Shown in pieces: positions 26,995-45,732 of a DNA stretch of 45,733 nt. The notes under the pieces are model-generated. The model was given only the letters and a program-made list of their open reading frames with translations, did no database searches and was not told the DNA's origin. Each line of letters opens with the position of its first letter. Position 1 is the stretch's first letter. This DNA comes from Desulfocapsaceae bacterium (GTDB taxonomy: Bacteria; Desulfobacterota; Desulfobulbia; Desulfobulbales; Desulfocapsaceae), in the NCBI GenBank assembly GCA_028697885.1, contig JAQVER010000020.1, positions 1-45,733 of the forward strand, written 5' to 3'. The position numbers and the translations under genes were made by a program.

Positions 26995-27522
26995 GATTAT
27001 TATTCTGAGCAAATGGATATGTCAAAACTGCTGGTAAGCGAAAAAAGACAAGGCTGTTACTTTTTACTCCGCATTGTTATTGCCAGTTCCTTAATCGCAA
27101 TTTATTTACTGTGACAGTATGCAGTTTCCTCCTGAAGTCGGATGTCTTTTCATTCATCATTTTGATCACATGAAAATGATCAAAAGCTATTACCGCCTTC
27201 TTCAAATTTTCACTTACAGTTCTGTTAGGAAATACAGAATCTTTAGATTAGGAAAAAGCATCGAGATTAAGATTGCCAGATCGAACATGAACTAGGCTGA
27301 GCCCTTCACTGGTTTAAGGTTTCTACATTTTCCTCTAAATTTTGGCCCAAATTCTATGGGCTGCTAATCTGCTCGCTCGGAGTGAAATCCTGTCAGGAAT
27401 AAGGTTCACCCTGCAGTTGTACTTAAAAGGTTAAGTTTGCCACTGGTATCCTCTTAATTCTTTCCCCAAAATTTCTGTTAAAAATATTTCACCTGTGATT
27501 AAATGAATCAACTTTCGTTTTT
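26995..27522. other. Intergenic region without a supported gene
   Basis: AT-rich sequence with stop codons in all frames. It holds one notable inverted repeat, TTTTGATCA (27160-27168) and TGATCAAAA (27177-27185), separated by 8 bp. The half-sites recall FNR/CRP recognition (TTGAT/ATCAA), but the spacing is wrong for one site. It could serve the downstream relic and norB unit. Confidence 0.4.
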
Positions 27523-33360: not shown

Positions 33361-33430
33361 TTCCTTTGTAGAAAAAACAGGATGTTGATGACCAAATTAT
33401 AACATACTTTCGGTTTCGTTTTTGTTACGA
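33361..33430 (-). repeat. Solo left end of the tyrosine-recombinase element family
   Basis: On the minus strand this matches the left ends at 35225 and 37395: CGTAACAAAAAC at the outer edge, then the extended -10-like TGTTATAAT, GGTCATCAA, and CCTGTTTTTTCTA. No recombinase gene follows; the interior is the broken small gene. Sequence outside it (TCAGGAAACATCACAACTTC, 33435-33454) resembles the flank at 35521. Confidence 0.75.
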
Positions 33431-33444
33431 ATAATCAGGAAACA

Positions 33445-33609
33445 TCACAACTTCTGAAAATGTTCTTCAGCATAGCATTGCCAGTAGGTATGTTCTCCTT
33501 TGATAGTTCGATCTTGGTCCAAGATAGCCAAAATTTGTTTATTGTCCCAAAGTAAACCCGTGGTCTGTCACCGATTAGCCCAAATCACCCCGTAGATTTC
33601 CTTTGTCAG
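33445..33609 (-). pseudogene. Unidentified coding relic with in-frame stop
   Basis: Minus-strand translation gives LTKEIYGVIWANR, a stop, then NKQILAILDQDRTIKGEHTY and AEEHFQKL before a terminal stop. The composition is protein-like across the internal stop, but no family is recognised. Its 3' end overlaps the flank that is shared with the region at 35521. Confidence 0.3.
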
Positions 33610-34180: not shown

Positions 34181-34563
34181 ATTAATTATCTCCTTGCCCC
34201 AGCCTAACCCTTCGGTTCTCCTGACATTCAGCGTAAGGTATCACACCACGTCCTTCAAATTGCCAAGGCTGAATCTTCAACCCAGCTTTTTCACTATTTC
34301 TTGTTTGGTGCCTGAACCCTTCATACCAGAAGAAAAAGAAGAACTTATCGTTTCTACTTCATTCTGATTTGTTCATGTGATACAAGATTAAAGCTGTTTT
34401 TAATTATTATCAAATATTTACTACATATCCTATATTTAAAATAAGAAACATCCCCCAGAACACGCTACACAATAATTCAATGAAAGTAGCTGTCATCTTG
34501 ATGGAAGGATATTTTATTGAACAATTCAAGAAACTTATTTTTTTATTATTAACGGAGAACACC

Positions 34564-34848
34564 ATGACACTTACAAAGGCAGAATTAGTTCAACAGGTCT
34601 ATAAAACCCATACCACTCTCAGTAAGACCCAAGCGACAGATTCAGTCGAAGCTTTTCTGCGGATCTCAAAAAATGCCCTAATCAATGGCTCCGATCTACT
34701 CCTGAGCGGATTTGGAAAGTTTAACGTAAAAGACAAAAACTCAAGAAAAGGTCGCAATCCCAAAACCGGTGATGAATTGATTCTTGATGCGCGAAGAGTA
34801 ATTACCTTTAAACCCTCTGGAATCCTGCGTGATAAAATAAATAATTGA
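34564..34848 (+). CDS. HU/IHF-family DNA-bending protein, first of a pair
   Basis: 94 aa. It has the conserved beta-arm sequence GRNPKTG and the core LLLSGFGKFNVKDK. The ATG at 34564 has GGAG 8 nt upstream; an in-frame start at 34480 adds an unrelated hydrophobic leader and is rejected. The stop is 13 bp before the next HU/IHF gene. The two may form a heterodimer, as IHF alpha and beta do. Such proteins often assist tyrosine recombinases, which are encoded 3 kb away. Confidence 0.93.
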   Translation: MTLTKAELVQQVYKTHTTLSKTQATDSVEAFLRISKNALINGSDLLLSGFGKFNVKDKNSRKGRNPKTGDELILDARRVITFKPSGILRDKINN

Positions 34849-34861
34849 TGGAGTGAAAAGC

Positions 34862-35146
34862 ATGACAAAAGTAGAATTAACAGAGGCATTGTCCAAAGAG
34901 CTGAATCTCTCGCTCAGTGCAACAAGGGGCATTATCTGCACGATACTTGATTCTATGACTGATGCACTGGTCAACGGTGATAATGTCGAGATCAGAGGCT
35001 TTGGTAGCTTCACTGTCAAGCATTACGAGCCCTATACTGGCAGAAATCCCAAAACAGGCAAAGAAACTGAGGTGAAGGCTAAGAAGTTGCCAATTTTCAA
35101 GGTCGGGAAGGATTTAAGAGAGGCTGTGAATGCTGGAAGAAAATAA
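34862..35146 (+). CDS. HU/IHF-family DNA-bending protein, second of a pair
   Basis: 94 aa. The ATG at 34862 follows GGAG by 8 nt. Motifs are VEIRGFGSFTVKHY and GRNPKTGKE, with the C-terminal DLREAVNAGRK. It is clearly distinct from the first partner gene. Its 3' end and the small ORF behind it were duplicated at 32704-32847. A small ORF starts immediately at its stop (TAAATG). Confidence 0.93.
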   Translation: MTKVELTEALSKELNLSLSATRGIICTILDSMTDALVNGDNVEIRGFGSFTVKHYEPYTGRNPKTGKETEVKAKKLPIFKVGKDLREAVNAGRK

Positions 35147-35245
35147 ATGACTATTTTAAAATTTCCATCCAGAAAGAATGAGCCAGCTTTCCTGAGCGAT
35201 ATTAAGGAAAACGGTTATCAGGAAGTATACGTAACAAAAACATAG
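35147..35245 (+). CDS. 32-residue ORF adjoining the HU gene, second copy
   Basis: It encodes MTILKFPSRKNEPAF, LSDIKENGY and a short tail that runs into the left end of the 296-bp element. It is a homologue of the ORF at 32767. Start and stop of neighbouring genes abut (TAAATG), implying translational coupling. The true C-terminus may have been replaced by the element insertion at 35225. Confidence 0.4.
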   Translation: MTILKFPSRKNEPAFLSDIKENGYQEVYVTKT

Positions 35246-35520
35246 CCAAGGCTATGGTATAATAAGGTCATCAAGACCCTGTTTTTTCTACAAAAGAAAA
35301 AGGAGACTTTATGACCGTGCAGCTCTGTTCACTTAATAGTTACTACCATGATTACTGGGCCGATGATATTCAGCAGGAACACTTGCCTGTATCTTTTCAG
35401 CCATCTGAACGCCTCAACGCTGGTAAAAATCCATCCCACCCTGAAATAATATTCTCTCCTCTCCATGGTGTAATACAACTGACTAATTTAATAAGAAAAA
35501 ACAGGTTTTGTTACGTATAC
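35225..35520 (+). mobile_element. 296-bp non-autonomous element (deletion derivative of the recombinase element)
   Basis: Perfect 15-bp terminal inverted repeats: GTATACGTAACAAAA (35225-35239) and its complement (35506-35520). The left end also has TGGTATAAT, GGTCATCAA and CCTGTTTTTTCTA as in the full element at 37395; the right end has AGAAAAAACAGG next to the terminal repeat, as at 39648. The interior retains the first part of the recombinase reading frame. This is the pattern expected of a MITE derived from a relative of the 2.3-kb element. Confidence 0.8.
35311..35499 (+). pseudogene. N-terminal remnant of a tyrosine recombinase
   Basis: With a good ribosome site (AAGGAG), the frame starts MTVQLCSLNSYYHDYWADD and contains RLNAGKNPSHPEIIFSPLHG. 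This aligns with the first ~55 residues of the recombinase at 37483 (MTIQNSIFESFYPTDWSD, RQNAGLMDKLFLPSAG). Everything from the core-binding domain onward is absent, replaced by the right terminal sequence. The stop of the frame lies outside the element at 35562. Confidence 0.65.
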
Positions 35521-35687
35521 TCAGGAAGCACCTCAACTTCTGTTTTGGTGCCATCCGCTTGATCTTGCCATTGCCAACCTTTTCCAGCCAACTCTTGGAT
35601 ACTTTATAAAAAAATAGTCTGGTTTCGACAAGGAGGTTGGTTAGCTTGGTCCGACCGCCTCCACCACAGACTCTGCGAGGAACGGAT

Positions 35688-37061: not shown

Positions 37062-37394
37062 TCTACCCCTCCTCAAGAGTTGAATAAAATTGATTTATGG
37101 GATGGACAGAAATGTCCTCCCTGCCAATTTTCAATCATTCTAAATTGAACGATATCACAAAAAAAAATGAAATAAAAAGAAAAAAAGACGACAGGGTTGG
37201 ATGTTATTGGATTGTGAGAGGAGCAAGTGCCAACCATTGATTAATTTCACCGAGTTATTGCATTCACCAGACGGCGAGAAGTGCAGCGGCGCTGACGCGT
37301 CAAAGTCATGGCGGCGCAAGTGACTTTGGTCGTTAATATTGCCACATCGAATATCTGATTACATCCAACTGTTCTCAGTTTGAGATGTCTACTG
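37062..37394. other. Upstream region of the octaheme gene
   Basis: No gene. The stretch 37155-37192 is a long purine-rich A tract on the plus strand, possibly intrinsically bent DNA upstream of the minus-strand gene. No FNR-type palindrome or clear -35/-10 pair is visible. Confidence 0.4.
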
Positions 37395-37425
37395 TATATA
37401 CGTAATAAAATAACGATCGAGCTTA

Positions 37426-37434
37426 TGGTATAAT
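37426..37434 (+). promoter_or_regulatory. Extended -10 promoter in the element's left end
   Basis: TGGTATAAT is a perfect extended -10 (TGnTATAAT), 49 bp before the recombinase ATG. The same element is TGGTATAAT at 35255-35263 and TGTTATAAT on the minus strand of the solo end near 33400. No good -35 box is present, as expected for extended -10 promoters. Confidence 0.7.
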
Positions 37435-37482
37435 AAGGTCATCAACATCCTGTTTTTTCTATAAAAGAAGAAGGGGGACAGC

Positions 37483-38664
37483 ATGACCATACAGAATAGT
37501 ATATTCGAGAGTTTTTATCCTACCGATTGGAGTGACCCCACCCAATCGTCTCAATCCTATCTCATTTTATCACTTCAACATCCTGCCAGGCAAAATGCCG
37601 GGTTGATGGATAAGTTATTCCTTCCCTCTGCCGGAGCGTTGTACGTCTATCGTCCCAGCAAACGGCGTCGTGTTCTTAATCGGGTTATAGACAAACTGGA
37701 GCACAGTAATCTTCCCGGCTATGAATACGTCATAGCTCATTTGTACGACAAGTATCGTCGTAATCTTACGATCAGTACCCTTGGTCAAACCGGTCAAACC
37801 CTGAGCGGTTTTCTGACTTTTTTGCAAGAAACAGGAAGGTCGGGCATAGAGGAAATCAGCCGTAAGGCTATTGCTGATTACCTCGAGCATGAGCAGGAGA
37901 GAGGGCTGAAGATTAACTCTGTCAGGAACCACCTGCAGACACTATATGCTTTTATTCAGTACCTGATTGATAAGGATATTCTTCCCCTGGAACTCCTTCG
38001 TAAAAAGATCAGAGTCAAGTTGCCTGAAGTGTTGCCAAGGGCCATCCCCACTGAAGATCTGAGGGAAATTCTTGCTGTAATTACATCTGTGCGAGATCGT
38101 GCCCTTATCCTGCTGTTACTCCATACCGGCATGCGTATTGGAGAGCTTCTGCAGGTAAAAATGACTGATATTATTCTGCCAGAACGAAAGATCCTGTTGT
38201 TTATCGGAGAGAAGAATCTCCATGGTCGGGTTGTTTATTACAATCAAGAAGCGGAAGAAGCATTGAAGAAGTGGCTTGGTGTCAGAGATCGGGATAGTAA
38301 GTATCTGTTTTACGGGAACGGAGGTAGGGATCTCTCCTATGTCGGTGCATGGATGATAATGAAGAAGGCTATTCAGCAGGCAGGGCTAGAGCAAAAAGGG
38401 TACAGCCTCCATTCACTGCGACACACATTCGCCACCAATATGCTCAACGCCGGATTGCGTCTGGAGGTACTGCAAAAGCTTCTGGGACATCTCAATATCG
38501 ATATCACCCTTCGATATGCAAAGATCGCAGATGGTACACGGGAAGAGGCATATTTCAAAGCAATGGCAGTCATCGAGAGAGGAGATGATCATGAATATGA
38601 CCGAGTCAATCCTGAACTACAGGCAGTATTTGAAGAGAAAGAATTACTCGGAGTTGACGGTTAA
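37483..38664 (+). CDS. Tyrosine recombinase 1 of the element
   Basis: 393 aa, XerC/D-like. An N-terminal extension of ~65 residues not typical of Xer proteins is followed by a SAM-like core-binding domain (~75-170) and the catalytic domain. Catalytic residues are Arg218 (TGMRIGE), His310 and Arg313 (HSLRHTF), His336 (LGHLNID) and nucleophile Tyr345 (LRYAKI), so it looks active. GGGGGA precedes the ATG. The end overlaps recombinase 2 by 74 bp, suggesting coupled production of two partners that may act as a heteromer on the two ends. Confidence 0.95.
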   Translation: MTIQNSIFESFYPTDWSDPTQSSQSYLILSLQHPARQNAGLMDKLFLPSAGALYVYRPSKRRRVLNRVIDKLEHSNLPGYEYVIAHLYDKYRRNLTISTLGQTGQTLSGFLTFLQETGRSGIEEISRKAIADYLEHEQERGLKINSVRNHLQTLYAFIQYLIDKDILPLELLRKKIRVKLPEVLPRAIPTEDLREILAVITSVRDRALILLLLHTGMRIGELLQVKMTDIILPERKILLFIGEKNLHGRVVYYNQEAEEALKKWLGVRDRDSKYLFYGNGGRDLSYVGAWMIMKKAIQQAGLEQKGYSLHSLRHTFATNMLNAGLRLEVLQKLLGHLNIDITLRYAKIADGTREEAYFKAMAVIERGDDHEYDRVNPELQAVFEEKELLGVDG

Positions 38665-39481
38665 GAACTACCTGCATAGACTGAAACTGTTCTTCAGCTG
38701 GCTACCGGTAACGGTTGAGGCCGCATCGGCAACAGAGGTGAATCACTACATCGATTACTTGCTGGAAAAGAGGATGGCTCCACGCAGTATTAACTGCCAT
38801 CTTTCAGCCGTGCGTGGATTCTATGATTACCTCACCTATGAGGAAGGCGTACGATTGGACAATCCGGTTACGAGAGGACAGATGCTCCGTGAGCCCCATC
38901 CTCTTCCGAGATACCTTCATGACAACGAGCTCCAGCTGTTTCTAGAAAGTGTATCAAGTCGCAGAGACCTTGCCATCTTTATGTTGATGCTGCGCTGTGG
39001 TTTACGTGTCCAGGAGGTGATTAACTTGACCCTTGACGTTATTGATTACAGACGCAGCCGGATTCTGGTCAAGGCCGGCAAAGGTGCCAGGGATCGAATT
39101 GTGTATATCAGCAATGATGCAGCAGTGGCACTGGCAAAATACTTGAGGAAGAGACCAAAAACTAATGAGAAGCAGATCTTCCTGGCTGAGAAGGGACGCT
39201 GCAGAGGAAAACCGATCTCTTTCCGTGCAGTACAGAAACGGTTAGAGCATTATGCTCAGGAAAGTGGTGTGGCCGTAACTTGCCACAGATTCCGGCATAC
39301 GATGGCCACCCAATTACTGAATGCTGATGCTGATATCGTTTCGATTCAGGAACTGCTTGGCCATTCAAAAATCAAAACTACCCAACGTTACAGTAAGTTG
39401 CTGAACCTGAAAGCTCAGCGTGATTATTTCAAAGCTATGGAGGTTGTGATGAGACAGACATCGACAAATCAATTGGAATGA
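38591..39481 (+). CDS. Tyrosine recombinase 2 of the element
   Basis: 296 aa, the usual XerC/D length. The start MNMTES is chosen for the GAGAGGAG site; a longer frame to 38516 lies inside recombinase 1. Catalytic residues are Arg139 (GLRVQEV), His232 and Arg235 (CHRFRHTMA), the His of LGHSKI, and Tyr267 (QRYSKL). All are present. It differs clearly from recombinase 1, especially in lacking its N-terminal extension. Two unequal recombinases in overlapping frames recall Tn554-like and RIT-type elements, which carry three genes; here only two are found. Confidence 0.95.
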   Translation: MNMTESILNYRQYLKRKNYSELTVKNYLHRLKLFFSWLPVTVEAASATEVNHYIDYLLEKRMAPRSINCHLSAVRGFYDYLTYEEGVRLDNPVTRGQMLREPHPLPRYLHDNELQLFLESVSSRRDLAIFMLMLRCGLRVQEVINLTLDVIDYRRSRILVKAGKGARDRIVYISNDAAVALAKYLRKRPKTNEKQIFLAEKGRCRGKPISFRAVQKRLEHYAQESGVAVTCHRFRHTMATQLLNADADIVSIQELLGHSKIKTTQRYSKLLNLKAQRDYFKAMEVVMRQTSTNQLE

Positions 39482-39503
39482 AAGACTGAGGTGAAAATCC
39501 GCC

Positions 39504-39568
39504 CCGTTAAGGGCCAATCCCTCCGACGAGCGTTTGTTGGGCCCATTCTCGGAACTGGCCCTTAACGG
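39504..39568 (+). repeat. Long hairpin at the element's 3' side, structured motif copy A
   Basis: CCGTTAAGGGCCA (39504-39516) pairs perfectly with 39556-39568 around a 39-nt loop. The loop contains TCCGACGAGC (39522-39531) and GGCCCATTCTC (39540-39550), which recur together in inverted orientation at 39880-39910. No U tract follows, so it is not a standard terminator. It lies between the recombinase 2 stop and the right terminal repeat. Confidence 0.75.
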
Positions 39569-39870
39569 AGCTACCATCGGAGGAAAAACTTGACATCTGG
39601 GTACTAAATGACCAAAAATAGAGACAGGTAACACTACAATTTAAAAGAAAAAATAGGATCTATTACGTATATAGACTGTATCTCTGAGACCGGGAGTCAA
39701 AATATCATATTGATTCAATCTGTCCATGCATCTTGGGAAGTTTGCCCACCGCCTACCTGTCAGGTTGCAGCAAAAAGGAGTGCGCGACAAAGCTCATTGT
39801 CAGTATTAAATAATATTAAAAAATAATTAAAACAATCTGTTATTACCCGCCGAAGCCTCAATGAAGATCA

Positions 39871-39919
39871 ACGGCAATTGAGAATGGGCCTCTCAAAAAG
39901 GCTCGTCGGAAAGGGCCGT
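39871..39919 (-). repeat. Structured motif copy B, opposite strand
   Basis: On the minus strand TCCGACGAGC (39910-39901), a 10-nt spacer and GGCCCATTCTC (39890-39880) repeat the loop of copy A, where the spacer is 8 nt. The enclosing stem is different and shorter (ACGGC/GCCGT). It lies just downstream of the HU relic on the same strand. Confidence 0.6.
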
Positions 39920-39955
39920 CCTTCTTGGCAGTCAGCTATTTAATCTTTTCTGACA

Positions 39956-40213
39956 CAAGGCAGTCCCACCACGAAATTTGACTACTTTTTTCCCTTTGGA
40001 CTTTTGGGATTCTCCACTGTGAATATCCGGATACACCCCTGGCAGGGGTTTTGACAGGTGAAAATGTCCCGAGCCCGATCAGTCTCACATCCTCTCTTTT
40101 CTTGAGTGCCTTGGTAATTGTGAAGACATGAAAGCCTGAATGATTTTTTGAGCATCAACCTTGGTGATTCCAGGTGTTTGTGCAATGATGTTGACAAGTT
40201 CAATTTTAGTCAT
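39956..40213 (-). pseudogene. HU/IHF-family pseudogene
   Basis: Translation begins MTKIELVNIIAQTPGITKVD and AQKIIQAF, then the family sequence jumps frame near 40090 (KREDVRLIGLGTFSPVK) and again near 40020 (KKVVKFRGGTAL). At least two frameshifts destroy it. It is the third HU/IHF-type sequence of the accessory zone and most resembles canonical HU. Confidence 0.8.
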
Positions 40214-40682: not shown

Positions 40683-43600
40683 TCAATCTCCTTCTAAAGG
40701 CGGCTTACCTGCGGCTGTTCTTGCTTCGTCTCTATCCCTGCTCATTTGATCTGCGTCTTTGATTGCTGCTGGGATATTGTACCCTGTTAAATTATCGACC
40801 AATGCTTCATTAGGCCCCATCAACTTGGCATCTTGGTGTTCATGGAGCCTTTGATGTGCTGTAGCATTAACATGGCCTGTAACTTCTCCTGGCCCGACCA
40901 ATGGAGGATGATTGGCACCAGGATTGCCGCTGAAATCACCAGGGGTAATCCTGGATGTATGACTTGCTGATTCTCCTACTGCTGGCCCTACTTGTCCCTG
41001 GATGTTTGAGACTTGACCTCCAACCTGCCCACCGGCTGCACCAATGGCTTCACCTACCTGAGCTTTTCCATCACCCCAACTGTAATTACCATTTTTAAGA
41101 AACGAATTGATATGCCCATTCAATTGGTCGATACCAGCAGATCCACCTGTTGCCATGTGGTTAAGAGCATCAGTCGCCTTACGGACATGCTCAGGACTAT
41201 CTGAACCGTAGCGTTGTGTCGCATAGTGTCCGACGAAGGCGGTACTCAGATCAGCACCCGTTGTTTCTGTCGAACGCTGCATATCCCTGGCATCATTCAT
41301 CAATGAAGTTGCTTTGGTTGCGCCAATATTGTGTGCCATGTTATTGGCAAAAGCAAGACCCTGGCTACTCCCCATACTTTCTTGTAGAGCTTCAGATCGT
41401 GCCTTGGTTATTTCATTGCCAATAGCCTCCGATGTTTTCTGGTCCACATCAAAGCTCACTGTTTTACCATCTTTACCTGTGGCTATTACGTCATACCTGC
41501 CACCACCTTTAGCACCTGTCCCTAAAATTTGTAATCCACCGCTTATTTCAGCAAAACCGGATAGTCTGGCTGCTGTCTCTTCGCCAACACTATCCTTAAA
41601 GCTGGATCCACTATTAATAGCCTTGTTCAGTTTCGCAGACACAGAATTATTAAGGTTTTCTCCATAAGTGCGAGCCTCGCTGCTGGTCAGGGCTGCATTC
41701 TTTATGTAACTCTGACCATTGGCCCAATTCTCATTGGTAGCAAGACTATCTCCAGCCCCCTTTGTTTTTATGTATGCGGCTTGATGTGCCATTGCAATTG
41801 GACTCATCCCGTTGACGCTGGCCTTTGTCAGTGTTGTGCCACCATGACCGTTTGTTGCATAGCTGGCTTGACCTGATGCCATACTATCCGTTTGAACACC
41901 AACTCCACCCGCCCCGCTGGTAGTGGTCAAACTGGTTGAGCCGTCTGCATTGACGGACTTGGTTTGTCCCTGGGTAGCTTGCCCATTCGGGCCAAGAGAA
42001 ACCGATGATTGACCTGCTGCAGTTCCTGCCTGTTGGTTGAAGTTCTTTTGCATCTCTGCATAGCCGGCATCCGAAGTTCCTTTTGGGATTTGCCCTGATT
42101 GTTCCAATGCTCTCCTGGCGTTCATCGAGGAATTGTACCCACCAACCGGACTATGGACACTATTGAAAGCCTCAGCCGAAGCTTGATTGGAAAACCTATG
42201 CTGGGGCATGCCTTCCAAACCCCCTGATGCTTTAAGCTGCTGGCTCATGGCCGATGCTGTCCCTTCCGGGGTTAACAAGGCTCCGGCGGCTCCACCTGCA
42301 CTACTTACCGCACCGCTCAAGCTTCCTGCCATCATAGCCAGGGCATGACCACCGAATTTAATCAGCATCATGGTGAAGAGACTTGCAAGCATGATACCCG
42401 AAGAGCGGATAATGCCGAACATGCCCAGCATCTTTTCCGATAATGATGGAAAAGCGGCCATTGAATAAACACCTAAAGATGACTGGCGCATCTCTTCAAA
42501 GGCGTAGGCCGCATAATCCATGGCCGCAGTATGAACTACGGCATCAGTGATGCCCCAGATGGTCAGGAAACAGAAAAAACCGAACATGGCTGAAAGTGTC
42601 TTGCCGACTACAGGGGTTGGCAAGAATAAGGCCAGGAAAGGAATCATGCCAATGGCAATGGCAGTCATGATCGCCTTGATAATCGGTATCCATTCGTTCA
42701 TGGAAATACCAACACCAACACCTTGCGAGGTGATCTTCCGGTTTGCCTCCATGAGCATTGCAGTTTCTACATCTTCCTGATAGTAGAAAGTATAAAGAAT
42801 TTCTGAGATTTGTCGTTGCTGGACGAGCTTCTCTGGTGCGACAGTATTACCCGTTGTGAATCTCAGGGTGCTGGTTAAGAGGTCTTTGCAGGTATTATAT
42901 TCAAGAGCATTGCTGGAATCAAAAGAAGCCTTGCCGCAGGTTTTCCTGAGTGCCTCATTATAATTATTGGGATTTTGATAAATTGGCCGGAGAAGATTCC
43001 ATGCTTCTGTACAGGTTTTAGTAACACCTGCCGGATTAGCAGAATCATAATAGACTGTATAGATAGCAGGATTTGCTGCTTTGCCAAGTTCGGTCAAGAA
43101 ATCAGTGGTGTCATTGCGGAGAGTATCAAGGGACAAAGTAGTTCCAGGCCGCATCAGCTCAAAAGTAACGCAATCCTTGGTGTAGCGGATTGTGCTTGTT
43201 CTGAGATGATTGTCTTTGATGTATGAGTTTCTAACTGACTCCAAGGTTTTGAAACCTATGCCACCGGCACCTCTGGAGTATTCGGAATCGGGAGCGGAGG
43301 CTGTATCAATAATCTCAACCAGCCCTCTTTCGACCTTGTTGAGTACACCGGCAGTAAAGACAACTGCATCAGGGATTCCTCCAATAGTCTGAAATCTGTT
43401 AAGCGTTGGGTCGTAAACCGTGATATTCCCCTTGGGAACAAACAGGCCCAGATAGAGAACTACCCCGAAGATCACAGGTACGGCCCAGATTAAAGGCGTG
43501 GCTTTCCCGCCATTGGCTGCCTGGACAAGCCAAGATATGGCCCCTGCAAGAAAACCCAAAACCGTAACCACTGTAAACAAACCTATATAGCCAGCATCAC

Positions 43601-43751
43601 TGAAGATCAGTGCCAACCGTGTAAAGGCTTGCGTAATCGGGCCAAAACCGCCATAGGTATAGTATTCCATGTCCATAGCATAGGCCGGGGTAGCTACAAA
43701 CAGGAATGCCAGGAACAGAATGGCCGGGAATGTGACAGCGGTTTTTTTCAT
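40683..43751 (-). CDS. traG: TraG-like mating-pair stabilisation protein (F-type conjugation)
   Basis: 1022 aa. Signal or first helix at ~1-25, then inner-membrane helices near 45-75, 88-108, and further helices at about 360-480, the TraG-N layout. The C-terminal ~500 residues are Gly/Ser/Gln/Ala-rich and hydrophilic, as in F TraG, whose tail acts in mating-pair stabilisation and entry exclusion. It is shorter than F TraG in places but follows the same plan. It is downstream of a Gln-rich exported protein and a TraH gene on the same strand, the F-type T4SS order. Confidence 0.85.
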   Translation of the reverse strand: MKKTAVTFPAILFLAFLFVATPAYAMDMEYYTYGGFGPITQAFTRLALIFSDAGYIGLFTVVTVLGFLAGAISWLVQAANGGKATPLIWAVPVIFGVVLYLGLFVPKGNITVYDPTLNRFQTIGGIPDAVVFTAGVLNKVERGLVEIIDTASAPDSEYSRGAGGIGFKTLESVRNSYIKDNHLRTSTIRYTKDCVTFELMRPGTTLSLDTLRNDTTDFLTELGKAANPAIYTVYYDSANPAGVTKTCTEAWNLLRPIYQNPNNYNEALRKTCGKASFDSSNALEYNTCKDLLTSTLRFTTGNTVAPEKLVQQRQISEILYTFYYQEDVETAMLMEANRKITSQGVGVGISMNEWIPIIKAIMTAIAIGMIPFLALFLPTPVVGKTLSAMFGFFCFLTIWGITDAVVHTAAMDYAAYAFEEMRQSSLGVYSMAAFPSLSEKMLGMFGIIRSSGIMLASLFTMMLIKFGGHALAMMAGSLSGAVSSAGGAAGALLTPEGTASAMSQQLKASGGLEGMPQHRFSNQASAEAFNSVHSPVGGYNSSMNARRALEQSGQIPKGTSDAGYAEMQKNFNQQAGTAAGQSSVSLGPNGQATQGQTKSVNADGSTSLTTTSGAGGVGVQTDSMASGQASYATNGHGGTTLTKASVNGMSPIAMAHQAAYIKTKGAGDSLATNENWANGQSYIKNAALTSSEARTYGENLNNSVSAKLNKAINSGSSFKDSVGEETAARLSGFAEISGGLQILGTGAKGGGRYDVIATGKDGKTVSFDVDQKTSEAIGNEITKARSEALQESMGSSQGLAFANNMAHNIGATKATSLMNDARDMQRSTETTGADLSTAFVGHYATQRYGSDSPEHVRKATDALNHMATGGSAGIDQLNGHINSFLKNGNYSWGDGKAQVGEAIGAAGGQVGGQVSNIQGQVGPAVGESASHTSRITPGDFSGNPGANHPPLVGPGEVTGHVNATAHQRLHEHQDAKLMGPNEALVDNLTGYNIPAAIKDADQMSRDRDEARTAAGKPPLEGD

Positions 43752-43823
43752 ATTTTATAATGGACGACGTGAGGGGCTATTTGACTTGATAGTGTTTCAT
43801 CCTCGGATTTTCCCAGATGATCT

Positions 43824-44465
43824 TTACATCTCACCAACTTCTTGCCCGTAATCGTAATGACCGTGGTAGTAATCTTGAATATCTTCCTCGTTGTTAATCG
43901 TTCTGCCGGTATATGAATCTTTCATATTTCTTTCACCAACGATATTAACCTTCTCTTCCAACACCTGATTTCCATCAAAAATGTACGCCTTGTCGAGTTC
44001 TGCGGTATTATCATGGAAAGTTGGTTGCTGCCCCACAACTGGCCTTGTCCCATCCTGGGCTTGTCGGTAGGCTGCATAGTCTGCGGCTTGTTCGAACATC
44101 TGGGTTTGCATGTCTGTCACTGTTTGCTGACATGCCTGTTGCTCTGCTGGGTCTTGGTATTGGGAGCATTCCTGGGATTTTTGATCAATAGCTGCTTGCA
44201 GGCTTGCCTGGGTTTGTTGTTGGGCCTGATCTTCTTGATTTTTTTGGATGTCCCATGCTTGTTGGTCTGCGATAGCTTGATTGTATGCCGCTAAGTCAGC
44301 CAGGTATTGATTATATTCAGCCTTTCGACCTTCAAAATACTGCCGCATCTGGGGGACTGTAGTTTGCCCTTCCTGAAAATTCGGGGCTGGTGCAGAAGTT
44401 GCCGCAAAACTAAGGATGGGAACTGTGGATGCTAAAGTTAAAAAAAGACAAATTTTTCGATACAT
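43824..44465 (-). CDS. Gln-rich exported coiled-coil protein between traH and traG
   Basis: 213 aa. A signal peptide (~1-21, ending SFAAT) precedes a long helical region (~30-145) rich in Gln, Ala and Asp, including QAIADQQAWDIQKNQEDQAQ. Two Cys pairs (about residue 100-115) could form disulfides. No family is recognised. Its place between traH and traG suggests a periplasmic component of the mating apparatus. Confidence 0.75.
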   Translation of the reverse strand: MYRKICLFLTLASTVPILSFAATSAPAPNFQEGQTTVPQMRQYFEGRKAEYNQYLADLAAYNQAIADQQAWDIQKNQEDQAQQQTQASLQAAIDQKSQECSQYQDPAEQQACQQTVTDMQTQMFEQAADYAAYRQAQDGTRPVVGQQPTFHDNTAELDKAYIFDGNQVLEEKVNIVGERNMKDSYTGRTINNEEDIQDYYHGHYDYGQEVGEM

Positions 44466-44499
44466 AATTCCATTCTCCTTTGATTACATTTTCCATATT

Positions 44500-45732
44500 C
44501 TATTGAATCCTTGCGACTACATCTTTCCCGAACCTGCGGGTAAGTTCCTGGTTCATCTTGCTTTCAAGGGTCTGCATGTGTTCCAGATAGCTTAAAATTG
44601 CGTTCATTTCTGATGTCGAGGCGATATAACTGGCCTTGGCCCCTTCTTTTAACTCTTGGATTTTCTCCAACATGAGGGAAATGTCCTGACTTGCATTATC
44701 CGCAAAAATAACAGCGGCACATTTTTCTGGCCCACCATTTGACCCTGAAGCCTTTTTCTCCAACACTTCTCTGGCTTTTCTGGCAATCATTTCAGCCCGA
44801 ACATACAAATCCGAGATCATTTGCAGGCTGTAAGCAGTGGCGGTTATGTCGGCCAGACCGCTTATGGTTGCACCGTCCGTATTGGTGCCAACAGCACTTT
44901 TGAGAATAGGCAATGGAGATAAGGGGTTTGAGTCCATAAAAGCCTTTTCTGTTGCTGTATATGTGCCTTTAGTGCGTATTTTGTCGGCTATACTGGTCAA
45001 CTGAGTTCTCACGTAAGCTCCCATGTCCCGATTGCCATCAGTCACCTGCGAACATTGACCTGTAGAGCTTTTGATATAAATATCACCATTGGCAATGGAT
45101 TTGATTGAATCAGCATTATTCTCCGAACATGGCGGCATGTAAGAAATCTTATAGGCATCAGCTGCTCCCGACAATTTGAGATCACCAACCAGCCCACGGA
45201 TGAGATCAATATGAGATCCCGGTATAGACATTTTTGCTCCGACATTAGCGAGCATCGAATCGCCGGTTAAAAACATATCTCGTACATCTGCGTTACATCC
45301 TGAAGTGACACCTCCAACATCACCAGAGGTTACAGCACCACCGTTTGCCTGTTCTTCTGCTGTTAAGTCTGTCCACATTTCCGATACACCGCTGACCAAT
45401 TTGTTTTCTTTGACCGCTGTACCGAGTCTTTCCTTCATTTCTTCACCGGAATGAAAACCATCCTTGTCAGCTACTATGCCAACCATGGTCTTAGCTGCTG
45501 CACATTCGTCAATCTGCATCTGGTTGAGTGCGTCAGAGAGAGCTTCAAAGTTTTTAATCGTGTTGGAGCATTGCTCACAGAGAGTTTTAAGTCCCAGGTC
45601 GAAGGCCACCCCTGCGGCATTTGACAAGATGGCTTGGAGCTTATCCACCAGATAATCAGAATCCATAAAGGAGAAACCGCCCATAAACACATCAATACCA
45701 CCGCAGCCACTCTTTACTTTTGGCATTTCAAG
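44500..45732 (-). CDS. traH: Conjugal transfer protein TraH (5' end outside window)
   Basis: At least 410 aa; the frame stays open to the window edge, upstream of the Met at 45726. The visible start region KSGCGGIDVFMGGFSFM is the conserved TraH signature, which normally lies ~70 residues into the protein. C-terminal coiled coil (~340-405) with SYLEHMQTLESKMNQEL. Periplasmic F-pilus assembly factor. Together with the following genes it marks an F-type type IV secretion system. Confidence 0.9.
   Translation of the reverse strand, partial: LEMPKVKSGCGGIDVFMGGFSFMDSDYLVDKLQAILSNAAGVAFDLGLKTLCEQCSNTIKNFEALSDALNQMQIDECAAAKTMVGIVADKDGFHSGEEMKERLGTAVKENKLVSGVSEMWTDLTAEEQANGGAVTSGDVGGVTSGCNADVRDMFLTGDSMLANVGAKMSIPGSHIDLIRGLVGDLKLSGAADAYKISYMPPCSENNADSIKSIANGDIYIKSSTGQCSQVTDGNRDMGAYVRTQLTSIADKIRTKGTYTATEKAFMDSNPLSPLPILKSAVGTNTDGATISGLADITATAYSLQMISDLYVRAEMIARKAREVLEKKASGSNGGPEKCAAVIFADNASQDISLMLEKIQELKEGAKASYIASTSEMNAILSYLEHMQTLESKMNQELTRRFGKDVVARIQ

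Follow-up and report, generated by a model that had tools for sequence, protein, structure and literature searches.

A 2.3-kb mobile element with two overlapping tyrosine recombinase genes in a Desulfocapsaceae bacterium

Two tyrosine recombinase genes lie between short inverted repeats in a stretch of DNA from a Desulfocapsaceae bacterium (assembly GCA_028697885.1, contig JAQVER010000020.1, positions 1 to 45,733), and the locus raises the question of whether these genes and ends form a transposon, how such a transposon would move and whether it is of a known kind. We analyzed the whole 45,733-nucleotide stretch, hereafter the window. A preliminary description had proposed a compact mobile element at 37395-39673. 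The 13-bp terminal inverted repeats that it reported are present and match exactly (TATATACGTAATA at 37395-37407 and TATTACGTATATA at 39661-39673), and the unit is real, although comparison of copies shifts each terminus by one base, to 37396 and 39672 (Table 1). Near-identical copies (94% nucleotide identity) in two congeneric genomes, G015 and G016, start at window positions 37389-37392 and stop at 39680-39682. In addition, a 69% copy in Desulfopila aestuarii (G041) has the same limits as the window element and different flanking DNA. The boundaries agreed across four genomes, and homology to other genomes stopped a few bases from the ends first proposed, with no conserved unit running past them. 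Because copies share these limits while their flanks differ, we define the element as 37396-39672 plus a 7-bp spacer on each side. As judged by sequence comparison, the interval is a discrete mobile element with the features that define a tyrosine-recombinase transposon in general, namely a self-encoded tyrosine recombinase, ends of its own and presence at several loci.

Table 1. Coordinates of the element, its parts and related features in the window.
Feature	Position	Strand	Length, basis or remark
Mobile element proper	37396..39672	+	2,277 bp; limits from copies in G015, G016 (94% nt) and G041 (69%); arms, spacers
Left 7-bp spacer CTACTGT, core of target site	37389..37395	+	occupied/empty pair L101 vs L109; C15 empty site
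Left core arm ATATACGTAATAAAA	37396..37410	+	matches family consensus, 46 copies
Extended -10 promoter TGGTATAAT	37426..37434	+	same element in 14/47 copies, the close clade
Left subterminal box CCTGTTTTTTCT	37449..37460	+	offset 53-56 in most copies
Recombinase 1, XerA/XerD-like tyrosine recombinase with N-terminal extension	37483..38664	+	393 aa
Recombinase 2, XerC-like tyrosine recombinase	38591..39481	+	296 aa; start overlaps recombinase 1
3' hairpin	39501..39571	+	invariant motif CCGACGAGC-N-GGCCCATTCTC at 39523-39550
TTGACA, possible -35	39590..39595	+	about 83 nt from right end, conserved; putative function
Right subterminal box AGAAAAAATAGG, inverted	39646..39657	-	box comparison among copies
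Right core arm CTATTACGTATAT, inverted	39660..39672	-	arm alignment of copies
Right 7-bp spacer AGACTGT	39673..39679	+	5/7 equal to left spacer
Non-autonomous derivative	35225..35520	+	296 bp; left end by own-genome search; arms, boxes, flanks read directly
Left TCAGGAA repeat of derivative	35218..35224	+	read directly
Right TCAGGAA repeat of derivative	35521..35527	+	7/7 identical to left
Lone left-end fragment of related element	33361..33450	-	own-genome search; beside TTCCTGA spacer

The element consists of inverted arms and two overlapping intact recombinase genes, and holds no other gene. The two reading frames overlap by 74 nt, and the GAGGAG Shine-Dalgarno sequence of recombinase 2 sits within the first gene. 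Both products match the Pfam family Phage_integrase (E = 4e-34 for recombinase 1 and 2e-35 for recombinase 2), and alignments showed that each retains the catalytic R, K, HxxR, H and Y residues, in agreement with the earlier reading of two intact but dissimilar enzymes. Both are closest to the XerA, XerC and XerD models, yet fall under the equivalog cut-offs. Phage_integrase and its SAM-like domains were the only Pfam domains inside the element, and the same search found no DDE, DEDD or HUH transposase between the ends. An AlphaFold model of recombinase 1 (mean pLDDT 73) has residues 1-54 disordered and one helix ahead of the usual core-binding domain. The doubled core-binding domain that has been described for RitA is absent from this model. 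The folds of both recombinases are taken from sequence profiles and this one moderate model.

With recombinase 2 as the query, about 85,000 species yielded 133 relatives, and we kept the best 80 of the 133 loci. In nearly all of these best 80, recombinase 1 overlaps just upstream of recombinase 2. Most of the loci come from Desulfobacterota and a few from Nitrospirota and other groups; the other groups include single MAG contigs with archaeal, Chlorobi or Bacteroidales labels, for which misbinning is possible. Both ends were located in about 46 of the 80 kept loci, with contig breaks or decay leaving some loci without two clear ends; at the 46 or so the ends recur with the recombinase pair over a span of 1.9-2.6 kb, and no further gene is present. 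Carriers available in culture include Desulfopila aestuarii DSM 18488, Desulfoprunum benzoelyticum DSM 28570 and Desulfosediminicola flagellatus. The copy in Desulfoprunum benzoelyticum (L146) has about 220 extra bases with short tandem repeats in the 3' non-coding region. In plasmid and phage collections, only distant general integrases were matched. The window also carries a derivative that keeps both arms and both subterminal boxes (see below) and has lost the recombinase genes. Two adjacent genes for HU-family DNA-binding proteins lie just ahead of it (34480-35146, plus strand).

An immobile remnant, with copies that spread by vertical descent or were moved by the host XerCD or a resident conjugative element, could also leave related units in several genomes. 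Such a history is consistent with the single full copy in the host genome, and with traG- and traH-type conjugation genes that adjoin the element (40683-45726, minus strand) and may stem from an integrated conjugative element or a plasmid remnant. However, insertion sites differ among close copies and inside one genome, with several insertions in each of two genomes (contigs 4 and 31 of G015; contigs 42 and 57 of G016). Moreover, the catalytic residues are conserved and the ends are exact across divergent copies, and we regard immobility as highly improbable.

We found that the copies share an end plan of core arm, 7-bp spacer and subterminal inverted box. The core-arm consensus of the family is NTRTACGTAAYAAAA at either end (46 copies). 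A second inverted pair is formed by CCTGTTTTTTCT, some 54 nt from the left terminus, and AGAAAAAACAGG, which ends 16 nt from the right end; 30 of 46 copies had subterminal boxes at both ends, compared with 0.13% of shuffles. Unlike the core arms, which are the same at both ends, the asymmetrically placed boxes distinguish the left end from the right. The preliminary description had suggested that each recombinase serves a different end or strand, a division of labor that is not favored by the presence of the same core arms at both ends and that the asymmetric boxes would allow. The internal extended -10 promoter reported earlier was found again and is unchanged in close copies. Near the other end, TTGAC lies 82-87 nt from the terminus in 34 of 46 copies, and a promoter scan of the window matched TTGACA-18-AAAAAT at 39590-39619. 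This match could be an outward junction promoter that reads recombinase 1 in a circular form of the element.

The 7-bp spacers bear directly on how the element integrates. Among 42 distinct insertions, the heptamers at both ends were identical in 25 (permutation mean 0.94, maximum 5 in 2000), and 254 of 294 core positions matched between ends (permutation mean 98, maximum 135). The core is flanked by inverted hexamers, giving AGATTT-N7-AAATCT. Perfect 7-bp direct repeats of many different sequences are also what ordinary target-site duplications would look like, if the DNA were cut in a staggered way and the gaps then filled, in the manner of DDE transposases, with no core match required. However, one and the same heptamer is found in related copies that occupy different loci (L149/L150, L158/L164 and L190/L205/L218). 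Core likeness followed kinship, with 4.65 of 7 matches above 75% recombinase 2 identity and 2.2 at 45-55%, and the flanks mostly differ. Several copies have imperfect repeats, and the mismatches in the window clade are limited to the first three bases, which fill-in would not produce. Further, both element proteins are tyrosine recombinases, and enzymes of this class do not make gapped duplications. We dropped DDE-type duplication, which we consider quite unlikely, because the same heptamer occurs between different flanks, as homology-dependent strand exchange predicts and fill-in does not. The identical end cores, which relatives retain at other loci, are evidence for site-specific integration that depends on homology, with AGATTT-N7-AAATCT as the target.

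The imperfect repeat of the window copy belongs to a pattern in its subfamily, where the right core consists of a fixed AGA and the last four target bases (right/left pairs AGACTGT/CTACTGT, AGACTGA/TTCCTGA and AGACACT/AGCCACT). One reading of such pairs, in which AGA is constant at the recombinase 2 end and the last four core bases vary with the target, is that this end retains core sequence from the donor, a behavior reported for strand-biased circularizing integrative elements (SEs; PMC9345347). Occupied and empty sites were compared at G015 contig 31 (L101), which has the element after CTACTGT, and G016 contig 41 (L109), which is without it. The two have 87 bp of left flank in common at 97% identity and diverge exactly after CTACTGT. 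On the other side, the window right flank (39675-40100) recurs at 94.6% identity on host contig 15 beside an unoccupied CTACTGT. Interrupted reading frames were seen at three empty-site joins (L178, L180 and L183), of which only L180 was longer than chance by estimate.

The window copy is inserted in a dispersed repeat with an exact spacing of TTGCCA to CTACTGT in 57 nt. The repeat, of about 110 bp, occurs at window positions 37337-37395 and 27267-27326 and at about a dozen further genome loci, and is dispersed at the level of the genus. It has two direct subsites, CCACATC-GAATATCTGATTT and CTACTGT-GAATCTCTGATTT, and element copies use both. These properties raise the alternative of a cassette-like system, in which the 57-nt-spaced TTGCCA...CTACTGT sequences would be attachment sites at which flanking DNA is rearranged by the recombinases, in much the way that integron integrases rearrange cassettes. 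Exact 57-nt-spaced sites number 10 in the host genome, or 14 by model, and are fewer in relatives. Neighbors are reassorted at CTACTGT between loci and genomes, L108 and L106 having only the left side in common and L108 and L109 only the right, and many sites come just after attC-like sequence (by eye only). However, the repeat is also present in two genus genomes where recombinase 1 was not found (G009 and G010), and copies in other families insert outside it. In addition, the element ends are plain inverted arms rather than the 57-nt site. A folded attC-like hairpin was rejected for the 57-nt stretch, which has no common fold. We consider cassette-like shuffling by these recombinases unlikely.

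A few sites have a composite structure. Junctions of the form CTACTGT-GCGGTTACGTATA-TCAGGAA on G000 contigs 90 and 150 (L062 and L063) and G016 contig 41 (L061) place two sites head to head around right-arm-like sequence, and may be excision scars or minimal derivatives. On G015 contig 20 (L048), CTACTGT-ATATACGTA-GTGAATCTC resembles a nine-base arm remnant at an otherwise empty site.

Taken together, we consider it very likely that the element, which belongs to sulfate-reducing bacteria, is a minimal transposon mobilized by its own pair of tyrosine recombinases. In the mechanism that we propose, both recombinases would act jointly and bind the inverted core arms at both ends, and the element would be excised as a circle with an arm-7 bp-arm junction. 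The circle would then be reinserted by site-specific recombination into AGATTT-N7-AAATCT sites whose 7-bp core matches its own.

The preliminary description had also set a two-gene form that it did not recognize beside the three-gene Tn554-like and RIT elements, and both gene content and phylogeny support a two-gene form distinct from RIT and Tn554. In a tree with the RIT trios of pHG1, Tn554-type and IS91-associated enzymes and E. coli XerC and XerD, in which deep branches were not resolved, each recombinase formed its own clade (support 100 and 99). The pHG1 trio proteins are only about 23-33% identical to the two recombinases, and the nearest outside enzyme compared with recombinase 1 was a TnpA (34% over 206 aa). 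The Tn554 family has TnpA and a long TnpB of 600-800 aa, often with TnpC. Adjacent tyrosine recombinases, and the proximity of recombinase 1 to a TnpA, are points of likeness to Tn554 and to two-gene Tn554-type elements, in which TnpB is 600-700 aa long, whereas the second enzyme here is XerC-like with 296 aa and there is no TnpC or other third gene. RIT elements are likewise multicopy and have overlapping tyrosine recombinase genes without cargo, but they have three such genes, are about 3.5 kb long and have ill-defined ends (PMC3414803). In the family studied here only two genes lie between the ends in about 46 copies, and RitA, RitB and RitC form clades separate from both recombinases (support 99-100). 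BIM bipartite modules are also two-gene modules with a tyrosine recombinase, but their second protein, of unknown function, is not a recombinase (PMC3414803). SEs resemble the element in having two catalytic tyrosine recombinases, inverted repeats (13-19 bp, imperfect) and a short spacer; the donor copy of the SE spacer travels to one end. However, their spacer is 6 bp rather than 7 bp, and they need tfp and srap, are about 7-16 kb long and were found in Gammaproteobacteria (PMC10214605, PMC9345347). The element has neither tfp nor srap, with no space and no ORF for either inside its ends. Membership in the RIT, Tn554, SE and BIM groups was dropped on gene content, the tree and the published descriptions (PMC3414803, PMC10214605).

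In its proposed mode of action the element comes closest to the Xer-type transposon TnPZ, of which it would be a version reduced to a pair of enzymes and a pair of ends. The TnPZ or XerT transposons of Helicobacter pylori have 13-bp terminal inverted repeats and 7-bp direct repeats (AAGAATG) that are single at empty sites, and at 39-55 kb they carry xerT as their single recombinase gene along with genes for type IV secretion, and occupy many insertion sites (PMC2731543). A Xer-type recombinase, short terminal inverted repeats, 7-bp direct repeats and many insertion sites are common to both. In contrast, the window element is 2.3 kb long with two recombinases, its family uses many different heptamers, and no type IV secretion or relaxase cargo lies between its ends. 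The literature search turned up no account of an element with two recombinases and these ends; subscription journals and ISfinder were outside the search, and novelty is provisional.

The 3' hairpin of the preliminary description is real and conserved in copies. Between copies of the element, 12 of 18 stem pairs show compensatory change around the invariant motif. Beyond the element, the motif had 39 occurrences, spread over 22 of 97 related genomes, and a reversed control had none. Across 22 different hairpin sequences, 83% of cells pair compared with 50% when shuffled, and double-change cells numbered 131 compared with 42.5 (SD 5). Because about 11 of 304 paired cells are G-U (counted from the covariation table), a hairpin at the DNA level is as possible as one in RNA. 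A hairpin model matched in 27 of 297 genomes of the phylum, with up to 16 matches per genome, and viral contigs gave only three matches. The hairpin follows, on the 3' side, transposase genes whose Pfam domains are of the IS110, IS21 (IstB), IS3 and IS256 types, another tyrosine recombinase gene, and HU genes (assigned by resemblance to the HU proteins of the window); where an IS3-type unit is repeated, the hairpin is part of that unit. A strict pattern matched 11 of 47 copies of the element family, chiefly those close to the window copy, so the family as a whole does not need the hairpin. A second hairpin copy lies outside the element in the right flank (39863-39928, minus strand) and also on G000 contig 15, where it directly follows an HU-like gene; the corresponding window gene seems frameshifted.

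An intrinsic terminator was rejected for the element hairpin, which has no T-run, as was a known RNA family. Rfam has no family for it, the window search was empty, and only chance-level microRNA matches were returned at the hairpin in another locus. Our tentative interpretation, which we hold as possible rather than probable, is that the hairpin forms a module, of structured RNA or single-strand DNA, that occurs in unrelated elements (the recombinase pair, IS110, IS21, IS3 and IS256) and is recognized by a single shared factor governing transposase expression or transposition. If this is true, the hairpin would be a cross-family transposon control element, of which we found no description in the literature within the same limits of search (subscription journals and ISfinder outside).

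With two enzymes, two ends, the size of an insertion sequence and a relaxed heptamer core, the element would rank among the smallest self-mobile tyrosine-recombinase elements. Such an element would also explain recombinase pairs that automatic annotation would call XerC or XerD. It would provide a clean system for asking why mobile elements keep pairs or trios of tyrosine recombinases, and how a site-specific recombinase becomes a transposase with many targets. The hairpin poses a separate question, as the same covarying motif is found behind transposases of unrelated chemistry.
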